A DNA stretch of 33,791 bases from Phycisphaerae bacterium (GTDB lineage Bacteria; Planctomycetota; Phycisphaerae; Phycisphaerales; SM1A02), in contig JABHZL010000124.1 of NCBI GenBank assembly GCA_018656645.1, positions 1 to 33,791 on the forward strand. Reading direction: 5' to 3'. The notes beneath the pieces are model-generated. The model had not been told where the DNA came from and did no database searches. It was given only the letters and a program-made list of their open reading frames with translations. The first letter of the stretch is position 1. Every line of letters starts with the position of its first letter. Below, piece after piece: positions 17,143 to 24,563 of the stretch. Position numbers and translations under genes: made by a program.

Positions 17143-17184
17143 TAAATTTTGTTTTACTAAATGATTCATAATTGCGGGGTAAGG

Positions 17185-17196: not shown

Positions 17197-18108
17197 ATGC
17201 GACGACATGTTGACACCGTGATGGTTGAACAGCGGGCTGCTTCATTTACCCGAAGGTCGATCAAAACCCAATCAAAGACACAAGGGTTGCGACTCGCCCT
17301 ATCTATGATTGATTTGACCACACTTGAGGGCAAAGACTCGGACGAAAAAGTCCGTTCACTTTGTAGAAAAGCAATTACACCTTGGGAGGGAGAAATAACC
17401 CCTTCGCTCCCATCCGTCGCTGCAGTCTGTGTGTATCCCAGTCTTGTGAGAATAGCAAAGCGGGCTCTCGAAGGCTCTGGTGTGCATGTCGCCTCGGTTG
17501 CAACCGGCTTTCCAAGCGGGCAATTTCCTCTTTCCGTTCGAATTGATGATGTAACAAAGGCAGTTGAAGCCGGTGCAGATGAAATTGACATGGTGATTAA
17601 TCGTGGTGCATTTTTATCTGGACATTACGATGAAGTGGCAGAAGAGATCAAACAAGTTCGTATTGCTTGCGGCGATGCACATTTAAAAATTATTCTTGAA
17701 ACAGGTGAGCTTGAGACATTAGAAAATGTTCGGGCTGCTTCCGACCTTGCGATAGAAGCAGCTGCGTCTGCTGGCCCTATTGCAGATGGAGAGGTTTTTA
17801 TTAAAACATCCACAGGCAAAGTAAGTCCCGCAGCGACAATGCCGGTCACACTTGTCATGCTTGATGCGATTCAATCATATTTTGATAAAACGGGTGTGCG
17901 AATCGGCATGAAACCAGCCGGTGGAATTCGCACTGCAAAACAATCGTTACATTACCTTGTGATGGTAAAAGAAACTCTCGGTGACGACTGGCTTACACCC
18001 AACCTTTTTCGGTTTGGTGCTTCAAGTCTCGCCAACGACGTTCTGCGGCAACTTGTTCGGCAACACACTGGGCGTTACACAGCAAACTTTGATTTTAGTG
18101 AGGCATAA
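17197..18108 (+). CDS. deoC: Deoxyribose-phosphate aldolase
   Basis: A 303-aa class I aldolase that cleaves 2-deoxyribose-5-phosphate to acetaldehyde and glyceraldehyde-3-phosphate, the last step of deoxynucleoside breakdown. The Schiff-base lysine is in VFIKTSTGKVSPAAT. The barrel also shows SMIDLTTLEG, AAVCVYPSLV, VASVATGFPSGQ, AGADEIDMVINRGAFLSG, KIILETGEL and MKPAGGIRTAKQSLHYL. It has an N-terminal extension of about 30 residues relative to short bacterial DeoC, as in eukaryotic/actinobacterial forms. ATG 17197 is supported by the -10-like element; the frame opens at 17161. The ALDH gene starts on the base after its stop, giving a path for acetaldehyde oxidation. Confidence 0.95.
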   Translation: MRRHVDTVMVEQRAASFTRRSIKTQSKTQGLRLALSMIDLTTLEGKDSDEKVRSLCRKAITPWEGEITPSLPSVAAVCVYPSLVRIAKRALEGSGVHVASVATGFPSGQFPLSVRIDDVTKAVEAGADEIDMVINRGAFLSGHYDEVAEEIKQVRIACGDAHLKIILETGELETLENVRAASDLAIEAAASAGPIADGEVFIKTSTGKVSPAATMPVTLVMLDAIQSYFDKTGVRIGMKPAGGIRTAKQSLHYLVMVKETLGDDWLTPNLFRFGASSLANDVLRQLVRQHTGRYTANFDFSEA

Positions 18109-19575
18109 ATGGCGACCGAAACAACAACAAACACACCATCTGCGTCATGGGAATACAGCGCGGCCCCAGAGCGGTTTCCAATTTCAATCGAAGAAACCCA
18201 TAAACTTTTTATTGACGGGAAGTTCGTTTCCCCGAAGTCTCGAAAGTGGTTTGCAACAACAAACCCCGCAACGGATGAAAAACTAGCAGACATAGCAACA
18301 GCTGGGGCAGCAGATGTAAATACCGCTGTACTCGCAGCCAAAAAAGCACTGCCAAAATGGTCCAAACTTCCCGGCTCAGAACGTGCAAAATATTTGTATC
18401 GAATTGCAAGACGGATCCAAGAACGAGCGCGTGAGTTTGCGGTTCTAGAAACACTTGACGGCGGTAAACCAATTAAAGAATCTCGTGATGTGGATGTACC
18501 TCTTGTCGCCCAACATTTCTTTTATTGTGCTGGTTGGGCAGACAAATTGGAATATGCTTTTCCGGGGAGAGAAGTGCAACCTATTGGCGTGTGTGGTCAA
18601 ATTATTCCTTGGAACTTTCCATTAATGATGGCTGCGTGGAAATTAGCACCTGCGCTTGCTTGCGGTAATACGTGTGTTTTAAAACCAGCCGAAACCACGT
18701 CTCTCACTGCCCTTCGATTAGCAGAAGTGCTACAAGAAGTGGAGTTACCAGCTGGAGTGGTTAACATTGTTACTGGCGCGGGAGATACGGGAAAACACTT
18801 GGCGGAACACAAGTCGATAAACAAACTTGCCTTTACGGGGTCGACTGGCGTTGGAAAAATGTTGATGAGAAATTCTGCAGGAACAGGCAAGAGGCTTACT
18901 CTTGAACTTGGTGGAAAAAGCGCCAACATAATATTTGCCGATGCAGCAATTGACCAAGCCGTTGAGGGCATAGTGTCTGGTATTTACTTTAACCAAGGGC
19001 ATGTTTGTTGTGCAGGCTCACGCCTGTTTGTCGAAGAGCCAATTTTGGAAGAAGTAATTCAGAAACTAACACATAGAATGAAATCGCTCAGAGTTGGCGA
19101 TCCTATGGACAAAAACACAGACGTTGGAGCGATTAATTCACGCGCCCAATTGCAAACAATTGAGCAGTACATCAAAACGGGTATTGCAGAAGGTGGACAA
19201 CTTCACGAAGCAAACAACCAACAATTACCATCAAAAGGTAATTGGTGTAACCCTTGCTTCTTTACAGATATTCAACCAAGCCACACCATTGCAAGAGAAG
19301 AAATATTTGGTCCTGTTCTTTCGGTGATGACGTTTAGAACTCCAGAAGAAGCAATTACACGGGCGAACAATACACCCTATGGTTTGGCAGCAGGAGTTTG
19401 GACAGATAAGGGTTCGAAAGTGTTTGAAGTTGCCAAACGTTTAGAGGTAGGCATTGTCTGGTGCAACAGTTATAACCAGTTTGATGCGGCCTCACCATTT
19501 GGCGGTTTTAAGGAATCTGGCTTTGGGCGAGAGGGTGGCATGCAGGGGTTGAAACCCTATGTCAAACTTGTGTAG
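18109..19575 (+). CDS. NAD(P)+-dependent aldehyde dehydrogenase, ALDH16-like catalytic half
   Basis: A complete 488-aa ALDH. The N-terminal NAD domain has QIIPWNFPLMMAAWKLAPAL, KPAETTSLTAL and FTGSTGVGK. The general base is Glu266 in LELGGKSANIIF, and the nucleophile is Cys300 in NQGHVCCAGSR. EEIFGPVLSV and SPFGGFKESGFGREGG close the fold. It starts directly after the deoC stop, so acetaldehyde from DeoC is the likely substrate (inference). The N-terminal SWEYSAAPE resembles the SLEYGPVPE opening of human ALDH16A1 as I remember it, and the next gene resembles that protein's C-terminal pseudo-domain. Together they suggest a two-gene ALDH16. The gene ends TAG TAA, a double stop. Confidence 0.93.
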   Translation: MATETTTNTPSASWEYSAAPERFPISIEETHKLFIDGKFVSPKSRKWFATTNPATDEKLADIATAGAADVNTAVLAAKKALPKWSKLPGSERAKYLYRIARRIQERAREFAVLETLDGGKPIKESRDVDVPLVAQHFFYCAGWADKLEYAFPGREVQPIGVCGQIIPWNFPLMMAAWKLAPALACGNTCVLKPAETTSLTALRLAEVLQEVELPAGVVNIVTGAGDTGKHLAEHKSINKLAFTGSTGVGKMLMRNSAGTGKRLTLELGGKSANIIFADAAIDQAVEGIVSGIYFNQGHVCCAGSRLFVEEPILEEVIQKLTHRMKSLRVGDPMDKNTDVGAINSRAQLQTIEQYIKTGIAEGGQLHEANNQQLPSKGNWCNPCFFTDIQPSHTIAREEIFGPVLSVMTFRTPEEAITRANNTPYGLAAGVWTDKGSKVFEVAKRLEVGIVWCNSYNQFDAASPFGGFKESGFGREGGMQGLKPYVKLV

Positions 19576-19590
19576 TAAAAGGATGAACGA

Positions 19591-20466
19591 ATGAGTAGGC
19601 TTACAGTTCCAAAAACATACAAGTTGTACATCGGCGGCAAGTTCCCAAGAACAGAATCCGGCCGTTCGATTCCAATCCAAGACTGCAAAGGTGAAATTGC
19701 AGCGCATATTTGCCACGCTTCAAGAAAAGATTTTCGCGAAGCGGTAGAGGTGGCGGCAAAAGCTGCTCACGGCTGGTCGGGTATAACGGGATATTTACGA
19801 GGGCAAATTCTCTATCGAATGGCTGAAATGCTCGAAGGTAGGCGGGAAGAGTTTGCAGCGGCAATTTGCGCGACTGCTGATGTAACCACTGCTGCTGCGA
19901 GAAAAGAAGTTGACGCTTCGATTGACCGCCTTGTTTGTTTTGCTGGTTGGACAGATAAATATCAACAAGTATTAGGGTGTCAAAATCCGGTCGCTTCTAA
20001 TTTTTACAACTTTACAGTTCCGGTTTCACAAGGTGTGACATGTGTGATAGCCCCAGATGAACCATCTCTACTTGGTCTGGTTTCACTCATCGCCGCTCCA
20101 CTTTGTGCAGGCAATACAGTAGTTGCTCTTGGTTCACAAAAGCACCCAATTCCAACAGCTATATTTGGAGAGGTTTGCCAAACCTCAGACGTTCCGGCGG
20201 GAGTAATTAATTTACTGACCGGAAAGCGGTCTGATCTCATTGAACAAGTCGCAACACACCGGCAGGTAGCAAGTGTAAATGCCGCTGGTCTGAGCAAGAA
20301 GGATCGTGTTACTATCGAGGTTGGGGCTGCAGACAGCATTAAACGGGTTTCTTTCTCGTCTCTCAAAGGTGACGCGTGGTATGACCCCCAACTCTGTGCA
20401 TCACCCTGGGCAATCGAGCCGTTTGTTGAAATGAAAACAATTTGGCACCCTAGTTCTTCACACTGA
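19591..20466 (+). CDS. Non-catalytic ALDH-like protein, resembles the C-terminal pseudo-domain of ALDH16
   Basis: A 291-aa protein with the ALDH N-terminal fold only: YKLYIGGKFPRTESG, REAVEVAAKAAHGWSG, LYRMAEMLEGRREEF, CFAGWTDKYQQ, GVTCVIAPDEPSLLGLVSLI, APLCAGNTVVAL and VPAGVINLLTG. The PWN motif, the G-S-T-x-x-G cofactor loop and the catalytic Cys are absent, and the protein stops where the catalytic domain would begin, so it cannot be an active dehydrogenase. The end, FVEMKTIWHP, aligns by eye with the C-terminus of human ALDH16A1 (RTKALWLP). ATG 19591 has AAAGGA upstream and lies 15 nt after a clean double stop, so this is a separate gene rather than a frameshift artefact. A structural subunit for the preceding ALDH is the best guess. 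Confidence 0.85.
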   Translation: MSRLTVPKTYKLYIGGKFPRTESGRSIPIQDCKGEIAAHICHASRKDFREAVEVAAKAAHGWSGITGYLRGQILYRMAEMLEGRREEFAAAICATADVTTAAARKEVDASIDRLVCFAGWTDKYQQVLGCQNPVASNFYNFTVPVSQGVTCVIAPDEPSLLGLVSLIAAPLCAGNTVVALGSQKHPIPTAIFGEVCQTSDVPAGVINLLTGKRSDLIEQVATHRQVASVNAAGLSKKDRVTIEVGAADSIKRVSFSSLKGDAWYDPQLCASPWAIEPFVEMKTIWHPSSSH

Positions 20467-20486
20467 AAAGCAACCCTGCGGGTTAT

Positions 20487-24125: not shown

Positions 24126-24563
24126 ATGGCCAAGAAAAAGAAAAAAGTGACTCGCAAAAAAGCGACTCGCAAAAAGGCAACAAGGAAGAAAGCCACCCGC
24201 AAGAAAGCTACTCGTAAGAAAGCTACTCGCAAAAAGGCTACTCGTAAGAAAGCCACCCGCAAGAAAGCTACTCGTAAGAAAGCTACTCGCAAAAAGGCTA
24301 CTCGTAAGAAAGCCACTCGCAAGAAAGCTACTCGTAAGAAAGCTACTCGTAAGAAGGCTACTCGTAAGAAAGCTACTCGTAAGAAGGCTACTCGCAAGAA
24401 AGCTACTCGTAAGAAGGCTACTCGTAAGAAGGCTACTCGCAAGAAAGCAACTCGTAAGAAGGCTACTCGTAAGAAAGCAACCCGCAAGAAAGCTACTCGC
24501 AAAAAGGCTACTCGTAAGAAAGCCACTCGTAAGAAGGCTACTCGCCGCCGACGAAAAAAATAA
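24126..24563 (+). CDS. Lys/Arg-rich pentapeptide-repeat histone-like protein (KKATR)26
   Basis: A 145-aa, extremely basic protein made almost wholly of one pentapeptide: MAKKK, KKVTR, 26 copies of KKATR, then RRRKK. It has no globular domain, signal peptide or membrane segment. The composition (Lys, Arg, Ala, Thr only) resembles the C-terminal tails of eukaryotic histone H1 and bacterial H1-like proteins such as chlamydial Hc2, so DNA binding and compaction is the expected role. ATG 24126 is 9 nt after AAGGAGG; ATG 24120 is too close. Codons vary among copies (AAG/AAA, GCT/GCC/GCA, ACT/ACC/ACA, CGT/CGC), so the peptide is conserved while the DNA drifts. A strong terminator follows at 24589. 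Confidence 0.9.
   Translation: MAKKKKKVTRKKATRKKATRKKATRKKATRKKATRKKATRKKATRKKATRKKATRKKATRKKATRKKATRKKATRKKATRKKATRKKATRKKATRKKATRKKATRKKATRKKATRKKATRKKATRKKATRKKATRKKATRRRRKK
24141..24545 (+). repeat. 27 tandem 15-bp units encoding KK(A/V)TR
   Basis: The array runs without interruption in units of 15 bp. Most differences are third-base changes; the only amino-acid change is Val in the first unit. A 60-bp higher-order pattern is visible near 24195-24310, suggesting block duplications. Copy number may vary between strains through slippage. Confidence 0.95.

Follow-up and report, generated by a model that had tools for sequence, protein, structure and literature searches.

Why should a gene for an aldehyde dehydrogenase (ALDH)-like protein that lacks a catalytic domain stand directly behind a gene for an intact ALDH, in a row that opens with deoC? 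The question is raised by a 33,791-nucleotide stretch of a Phycisphaerae bacterium (GenBank assembly GCA_018656645.1, contig JABHZL010000124.1), referred to as a whole as the window. Three genes lie head to tail on its forward (+) strand: deoC (17197..18108), encoding a class I deoxyribose-5-phosphate aldolase of 303 amino acids (aa); the gene for a 488-aa catalytic ALDH (18109..19575), its ATG abutting the TAA of deoC with 0 nucleotides (nt) between; and, 15 nt further on, the gene for a 291-aa pseudo-ALDH (pALDH, 19591..20466). A first-pass annotation made from the sequence, whose gene coordinates and lengths proved correct, had taken the last two genes as a split ALDH16 that oxidizes the acetaldehyde released by DeoC. 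The two proteins do match complementary parts of bacterial ALDH16, relatives keep them together, and deoC recurs beside both the two-gene and the fused form. That they form a hetero-oligomeric ALDH16 oxidizing acetaldehyde from DeoC is the reading we favor, with a probability of roughly 80%.

Two Genes with the Parts of One ALDH16

The first gene is identified by a score of 163.4 bits against the TIGR00126 equivalog model (cut-off 117.3 bits, E = 4.8e-48). DeoC also matches PF01791, and its sequence carries GMKPAGGIR and IKTSTGK, the latter of which we take to be the Schiff-base lysine motif. An alternative start, the upstream ATG at 17161, would lengthen the protein to 315 aa; the 303-aa frame, read from its first start, is found in 6 of the 10 other loci of the genus with a complete deoC.

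The Pfam Aldedh profile (PF00171, 542 bits) covers residues 39–486 of the ALDH, nearly end to end, and both catalytic residues that had been claimed for it are in place, Glu266 in ELGGK and Cys300 in NQGHVCCAG. Across 22 aligned ALDH sequences, including that of the window, Cys300 is invariant and Glu266 is retained in at least 90%. The match of pALDH to the same profile is confined to positions 13–233 of 461 and, because it ends there, the catalytic domain is absent. The window genome (2.0 Mb in 137 contigs) has seven Aldedh matches in all: the ALDH, four others above 420 bits, one weak match, and pALDH.

The clean stops and separate ribosome site described for the pair are likewise present. 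The ALDH gene closes with a tandem pair of in-frame stops, TAG TAA, and a Shine-Dalgarno-like AGGA (19580..19583, + strand) lies 7 nt 5' of the pALDH ATG. We considered whether a sequencing error had split one gene, and reject this: the tandem stops make a single error unlikely, the second gene has its own start, and relatives keep the same layout of two open reading frames (ORFs), which therefore is beyond chance.

In a phmmer search of PDB sequences, the top match of both proteins was the bacterial ALDH16 6mvr, and they map to complementary parts of it: ALDH to residues 35–476 (E = 7.7e-161, whole sequence) and pALDH to residues 500–764 (E = 2.7e-58, whole sequence), the best pALDH match beyond ALDH16 reaching only 7e-26. 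The motifs AKLYIGGK and EVKTIWVP of Loktanella ALDH16 are the same motifs as those at the start and end of pALDH. The 488-aa ALDH is thereby assigned to the catalytic part of the ALDH16 lineage and pALDH to its non-catalytic, C-terminal cofactor-domain-like part, and the claim of a split ALDH16 is supported by these matches as well as by the C-domain tree described below. The two parts are obviously not in one polypeptide; because they are two ORFs with TAG TAA between them and a separate start with its Shine-Dalgarno-like site, we speak of a two-gene variant and not of a standard ALDH16 protein. Split and fused C-domains share the same losses. None of the 55 split or 26 fused C-domains has an equivalent of Lys192 or Gly249 (ALDH numbering), and one of each has an equivalent of Asn169; all three residues are kept in 11 of 11 ordinary ALDH rows.

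Trees and Distribution

The C-domain tree comprises 94 rows. For it, 8 N-half rows were added, and the rows taken out were 28 near-copies or thinned ones and 6 that were faulty or long, including L068, which has the most divergent pALDH. All pseudo-domains, split and fused alike, are set off from the 11 ordinary-ALDH or N-half rows (support 100/100). The 26 fused rows, including Loktanella 6mvr, form one clade (100/99), and the 55 split rows, together with two that have no upstream ALDH, lie on the other side as its sister (94/95). In the N-domain tree (45 rows), the 16 fused rows again form one clade (100/100), and split and fused N-parts are separated by a 99/99 branch from six ordinary ALDHs, which are long-branched rows. 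As both trees group the fused rows into one clade, one fusion or one fission suffices, and from these alignments a single ancient event, in either direction, seems to separate the fused forms from the split ones. The first-pass annotation had described the window as a pre-fusion (or fission) arrangement; a single event indeed looks enough, whereas the pre-fusion direction is only possible, the split rows being monophyletic in just 34% of the N-domain bootstraps, in a tree whose outgroups sit on very long branches.

When named genomes were scanned with the pALDH alignment, 589 candidate loci were confirmed, of which the best 80 were taken; these were ranked by similarity to the window, and split forms are therefore favored among them. 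They come from Planctomycetota, Verrucomicrobiota, Actinomycetota (Streptomyces, Amycolatopsis, Saccharopolyspora, and others), Bacteroidota, Balneolota, Rhodothermota, Chloroflexota, and Gammaproteobacteria. A separate ALDH ORF lies upstream of pALDH in 72 of these 80 loci, and none is fused.

Samples were also drawn by phylum, each including the centre genome, itself chosen for having the gene. In Planctomycetota, 35 of 294 genomes have a match scoring above ordinary ALDHs, 19 in the split score range (17 confirmed split, 2 without an upstream ALDH) and 16 with fused-like frames. Ten of the latter are confirmed fused; the other six (L274 and L277–L281, open frames of 810–936 aa) did not pass the hit filter, are unclassified, and were excluded from the deoC-linkage counts. 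Pseudomonadota have 27 of 299 (1 split, 26 fused), two further rows being ordinary ALDHs. Matches were found in 28 of 149 Actinomycetota and 32 of 148 Bacteroidota genomes, and 20 of these 60 loci, a non-random choice, were fetched: all 14 from Actinomycetota are split, those from Bacteroidota are five split and one fused, and deoC is present in 17 of the 20. The two-gene ALDH16 is thus old and widespread and not special to the window genome.

Independent fusions in Actinomycetota, as open frames of 671–927 aa might indicate, were considered and rejected; all seven genomes concerned are split, and the long frames are open upstream sequence. The fused Bacteroidota form (L307 in genome G891) stands beside deoC, and the other 31 matches of that sample score like split forms; horizontal transfer is a possible source of it. 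At seven split loci (L061, L077, L078, L094, L116, L119, and L134), about 0.6–2 kb separate ALDH from pALDH, and some of these intervals may hold an extra gene.

Conservation in Relatives

Sixty-one genomes of relatives were searched, with thresholds of E <= 1e-30 for pALDH, E <= 1e-150 for the cognate ALDH, and E <= 1e-15 for deoC. pALDH was found in 33 of them, including all 13 of the genus (window genome counted), and the cognate ALDH also in 33. Both are present in 32 genomes, pALDH only in one, ALDH only in one, and neither in 27 (Fisher p = 5e-15); with the genus left out, the same counts are 19, 1, 1, and 27 (p = 3e-11); and deoC, found in 50 of the 61, is present in 33 of 33 genomes with pALDH versus 17 of 28 without it (p = 5e-5), all of these values being optimistic in that such tests ignore shared ancestry.

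Nor is pALDH a full-length ALDH in relatives. No more than 3 codons separate the end of the pALDH match from a stop in 32 of 32 order-level loci, and no more than 12 in 175 of 176 classified loci, so that there is no catalytic domain downstream of the match. The ratio of nonsynonymous to synonymous substitution rates (dN/dS) in four near-relative pairs is 0.038–0.088 for pALDH, 0.018–0.029 for ALDH (one pair saturated), and 0.021–0.042 for DeoC, with synonymous sites near saturation. pALDH is under purifying selection.

Predicted Structure of the Pair

Because ALDH and pALDH share a reading frame, reading through the two stops gives one chain of 785 residues with an artificial link of six. For its prediction, 64 rows were added to the alignment; of all 65, 36 cover the N-half and 39 the C-half. 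AlphaFold2 modeled the read-through chain with a predicted local distance difference test score (pLDDT) of 84.8 and a predicted template modeling score (pTM) of 0.71. The top PDB structure match of the model is 6mvs, with a template modeling (TM) score of 0.88 by query and 0.92 by target, and the superposition extends over 724 residues (19 to 783) at 1.9 Å with a Z score of 51.1; over such a length, both parts must be superposed at once. The ordinary ALDHs among the matches listed align with the N-part only (449–476 residues, Z up to 49.3). The release of 6mvs (2018-12-26) postdates the training of the AlphaFold2 weights used. The ALDH–pALDH interface that had been anticipated is therefore present in the prediction, pALDH being docked as in 6mvs, in a single read-through chain and not in a multimer.

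Linkage to deoC

Linkage was counted by tblastn in the fetched regions around each locus. deoC lies near 21 of 30 order-level, 63 of 72 named, and 13 of 14 planctomycete split loci; counted over all 80 of the best named loci, it is in the fetched stretch at 63. It also lies near 25 of 26 fused loci in Pseudomonadota (the 26th is near a contig start), with match ends 53–858 bp apart, near 9 of 10 classified fused loci in planctomycetes, and near 9 of 9 fused loci in plasmid records. The plasmid sample was 11 of 156 matching records, two of them from Sinorhizobium meliloti, one split, and one cut at the record start. In S. meliloti, the order is a DeoR-family regulator, deoC, and a 794-aa ALDH16; deoC adjoins fused ALDH16 also on plasmids of Shinella, Roseicitreum, Pseudochrobactrum, Agrobacterium, Paracoccus, and Nitratireductor. 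Since deoC is a neighbor of fused ALDH16 genes as well, the DeoC context of ALDH16 is stronger than the first-pass annotation, which had proposed a survey of planctomycete deoC neighborhoods, had claimed.

Four of the seven annotated fused loci have, upstream, a ribokinase gene, an aldose-epimerase-family or DUF4432 gene, and ATP-binding cassette permeases; the ribokinase and transporters at fused loci point to (deoxy)ribose or nucleoside uptake. Upstream of a split locus in Streptomyces is a phosphosugar-mutase-family gene, consistent with nucleoside salvage, and no link to nucleoside salvage was seen in the other neighborhoods scanned. In the window genome, PNP/UDP-phosphorylase-family and phosphosugar-mutase-family genes are found away from the window and, judged by family membership, could feed DeoC.

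Proposed Function and Its Alternatives

We propose that deoC, ALDH, and pALDH form an operon that would be read as one transcript and serve the final part of deoxyribose catabolism. DeoC yields glyceraldehyde-3-phosphate and acetaldehyde (PMC6365646), and the 488-aa ALDH would use NAD+ to oxidize the acetaldehyde, or another small aldehyde like it, to the acid. We infer acetaldehyde as its substrate solely from the linkage and co-occurrence of deoC. pALDH, having lost the catalytic domain and the cofactor-contacting residues, would act as a structural partner that packs on ALDH where the second subunit sits in the classical ALDH dimer; it probably replaces that subunit, as does the C-domain in ALDH16. 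The active unit would then be a heterodimer of ALDH with pALDH, two of which pair as (ALDH:pALDH)2, equivalent to the dimer of fused ALDH16. That other bacteria carry these two parts naturally fused is a "Rosetta stone" sign of a physical complex.

The alternative that survives best, although we consider it unlikely, keeps the hetero-oligomer and gives it another aldehyde as substrate, deoC being a neighbor through shared regulation only. ALDH families are often promiscuous, and several relatives that keep the pair have deoC unlinked; the recurrence of deoC beside split and fused forms in distant phyla, and its presence in all 33 relatives with pALDH, are not what this alternative would lead one to expect. 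Of appreciably lower probability is a pALDH with a role separate from ALDH, such as that of a scaffold or regulator binding DeoC or another protein, contact with ALDH being secondary. The unlinking of pALDH from ALDH in one relative (G030) would suit such a role, as would the discussion of the human homologue as an interaction protein (PMC10650815), but the predicted docking agrees with the ALDH16 crystal, and the naturally occurring ALDH–pALDH fusion implies that the two share a stable pose. That pALDH is a functionless paralogue, decayed or truncated, is highly improbable even though it has neither catalytic domain nor cofactor residues and evolves somewhat faster than ALDH (dN/dS of 0.04–0.09 versus 0.02–0.03), and we reject it on conservation in relatives, the C-domain tree, and dN/dS, as pALDH has a constant length and position in many phyla, co-occurs almost perfectly with ALDH, is under purifying selection, and falls with the ALDH16 C-domain into a single clade (100/100) and not among ordinary ALDHs.

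Several observations weigh against a hetero-oligomeric ALDH16 acting on acetaldehyde from DeoC. By Z score alone, 6mvs (51.1) is little above the best ordinary ALDH (49.3), and the structural case thus rests on aligned length (724 versus 449–476 residues). A single chain with a six-residue link of course forces the two parts into proximity, and an earlier model from 8 alignment rows was weaker (pLDDT 74.0, pTM 0.55). Shared ancestry flatters the Fisher values given above. No upstream ALDH was found in the fetched stretch at 8 of the best 80 named loci, 3 of which start near a contig end; the loci L262, L263, L074, L089, and L139 have pALDH with no ALDH upstream within the fetched stretch. One relative (G015) has ALDH without a detected pALDH. 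Another (G032) has pALDH only by threshold, a divergent ALDH adjoining it, the pair being divergent at about 30% and 35% identity. In five relatives (G021, G027, G029, G036, and G058), deoC is elsewhere in the genome, either on a separate contig or at a distance of over 90 kb, and beside deoC in the window no nucleoside phosphorylase, kinase, or transporter was recognized. In G030, pALDH is on a different contig from ALDH and deoC, yet all three are kept. Linkage to deoC is common and not strict; since several relatives have the genes separated, the trio is retained even when unlinked.

Relation to Known Systems

Bacterial ALDH16 from Loktanella (6mvr, 6mvs, 6mvt, and 6mvu) likewise joins a catalytic ALDH to a non-catalytic, C-terminal cofactor-domain-like part, and resembles the window pair in sequence, fold, and predicted docking pose; it differs in being one polypeptide and not two genes. 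Bacterial ALDH16 oxidizes aldehydes and is a dimer in solution, and human ALDH16A1, also a member of the family, has two ALDH-like domains, fused. Acetaldehyde-releasing aldolases are coupled to acetaldehyde dehydrogenases in DmpG–DmpF and BphI–BphJ, for which channeling has been reported; unlike the window trio, these have another type of aldolase and a CoA-acylating dehydrogenase. To our knowledge, the E. coli deo operon is without a dedicated ALDH16 pair; it resembles the window in the DeoC route of deoxyribose-5-phosphate, which is described in PMC6365646. Loci for SPU bacterial microcompartments also hold a DeoC-like aldolase and an aldehyde dehydrogenase together, and differ from the window in having shell proteins, an aldehyde dehydrogenase that possibly forms acetyl-CoA, and, in the part described, no pseudo-ALDH (PMC4207490). 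Human ALDH16A1 has lost the catalytic triad, whereas the window N-part keeps Cys and Glu, and it is reported as an interaction protein (PMC10650815); the same source lists the substrate of human ALDH16 as unknown and its exact biological roles as not fully understood.

Neither a split ALDH16 nor a link of ALDH16 to deoC is named in the part of the open-access literature that was searched. Fused and two-gene ALDH16 beside deoC in distant phyla provide a concrete and testable original function for the family; it is likely that the DeoC-linked trio gives this poorly understood family an original job. With the pseudo-domain as a gene of its own, its contribution could be measured by adding or omitting pALDH. 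Further, and with doubts that we would stress, ALDH16 might have arisen as a DeoC-coupled acetaldehyde dehydrogenase whose pseudo-subunit completes the oligomer, docks DeoC, and passes on the acetaldehyde to the active ALDH, two original genes having fused once; ALDH16A1, a eukaryotic pseudoenzyme with links to gout and HPRT1, would then be a remnant of this nucleoside-catabolism machine.

Other Features of the Window

A possible intrinsic terminator at 20472..20484 (+ strand) would mark the end of the three-gene unit. It is a weak candidate from a pattern scan, and terminator-like hairpins number six in the stretch versus 4.6 in shuffles, hardly above chance. Further downstream, positions 24150–24544 of the window hold a tandem array of about 26 copies of a 15-bp unit, ACTCGTAAGAAAGCT. 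In one frame of the + strand, the array would encode Thr-Arg-Lys-Lys-Ala repeats, which presumably resemble the basic tail of histone-H1-like or HctB-type proteins.

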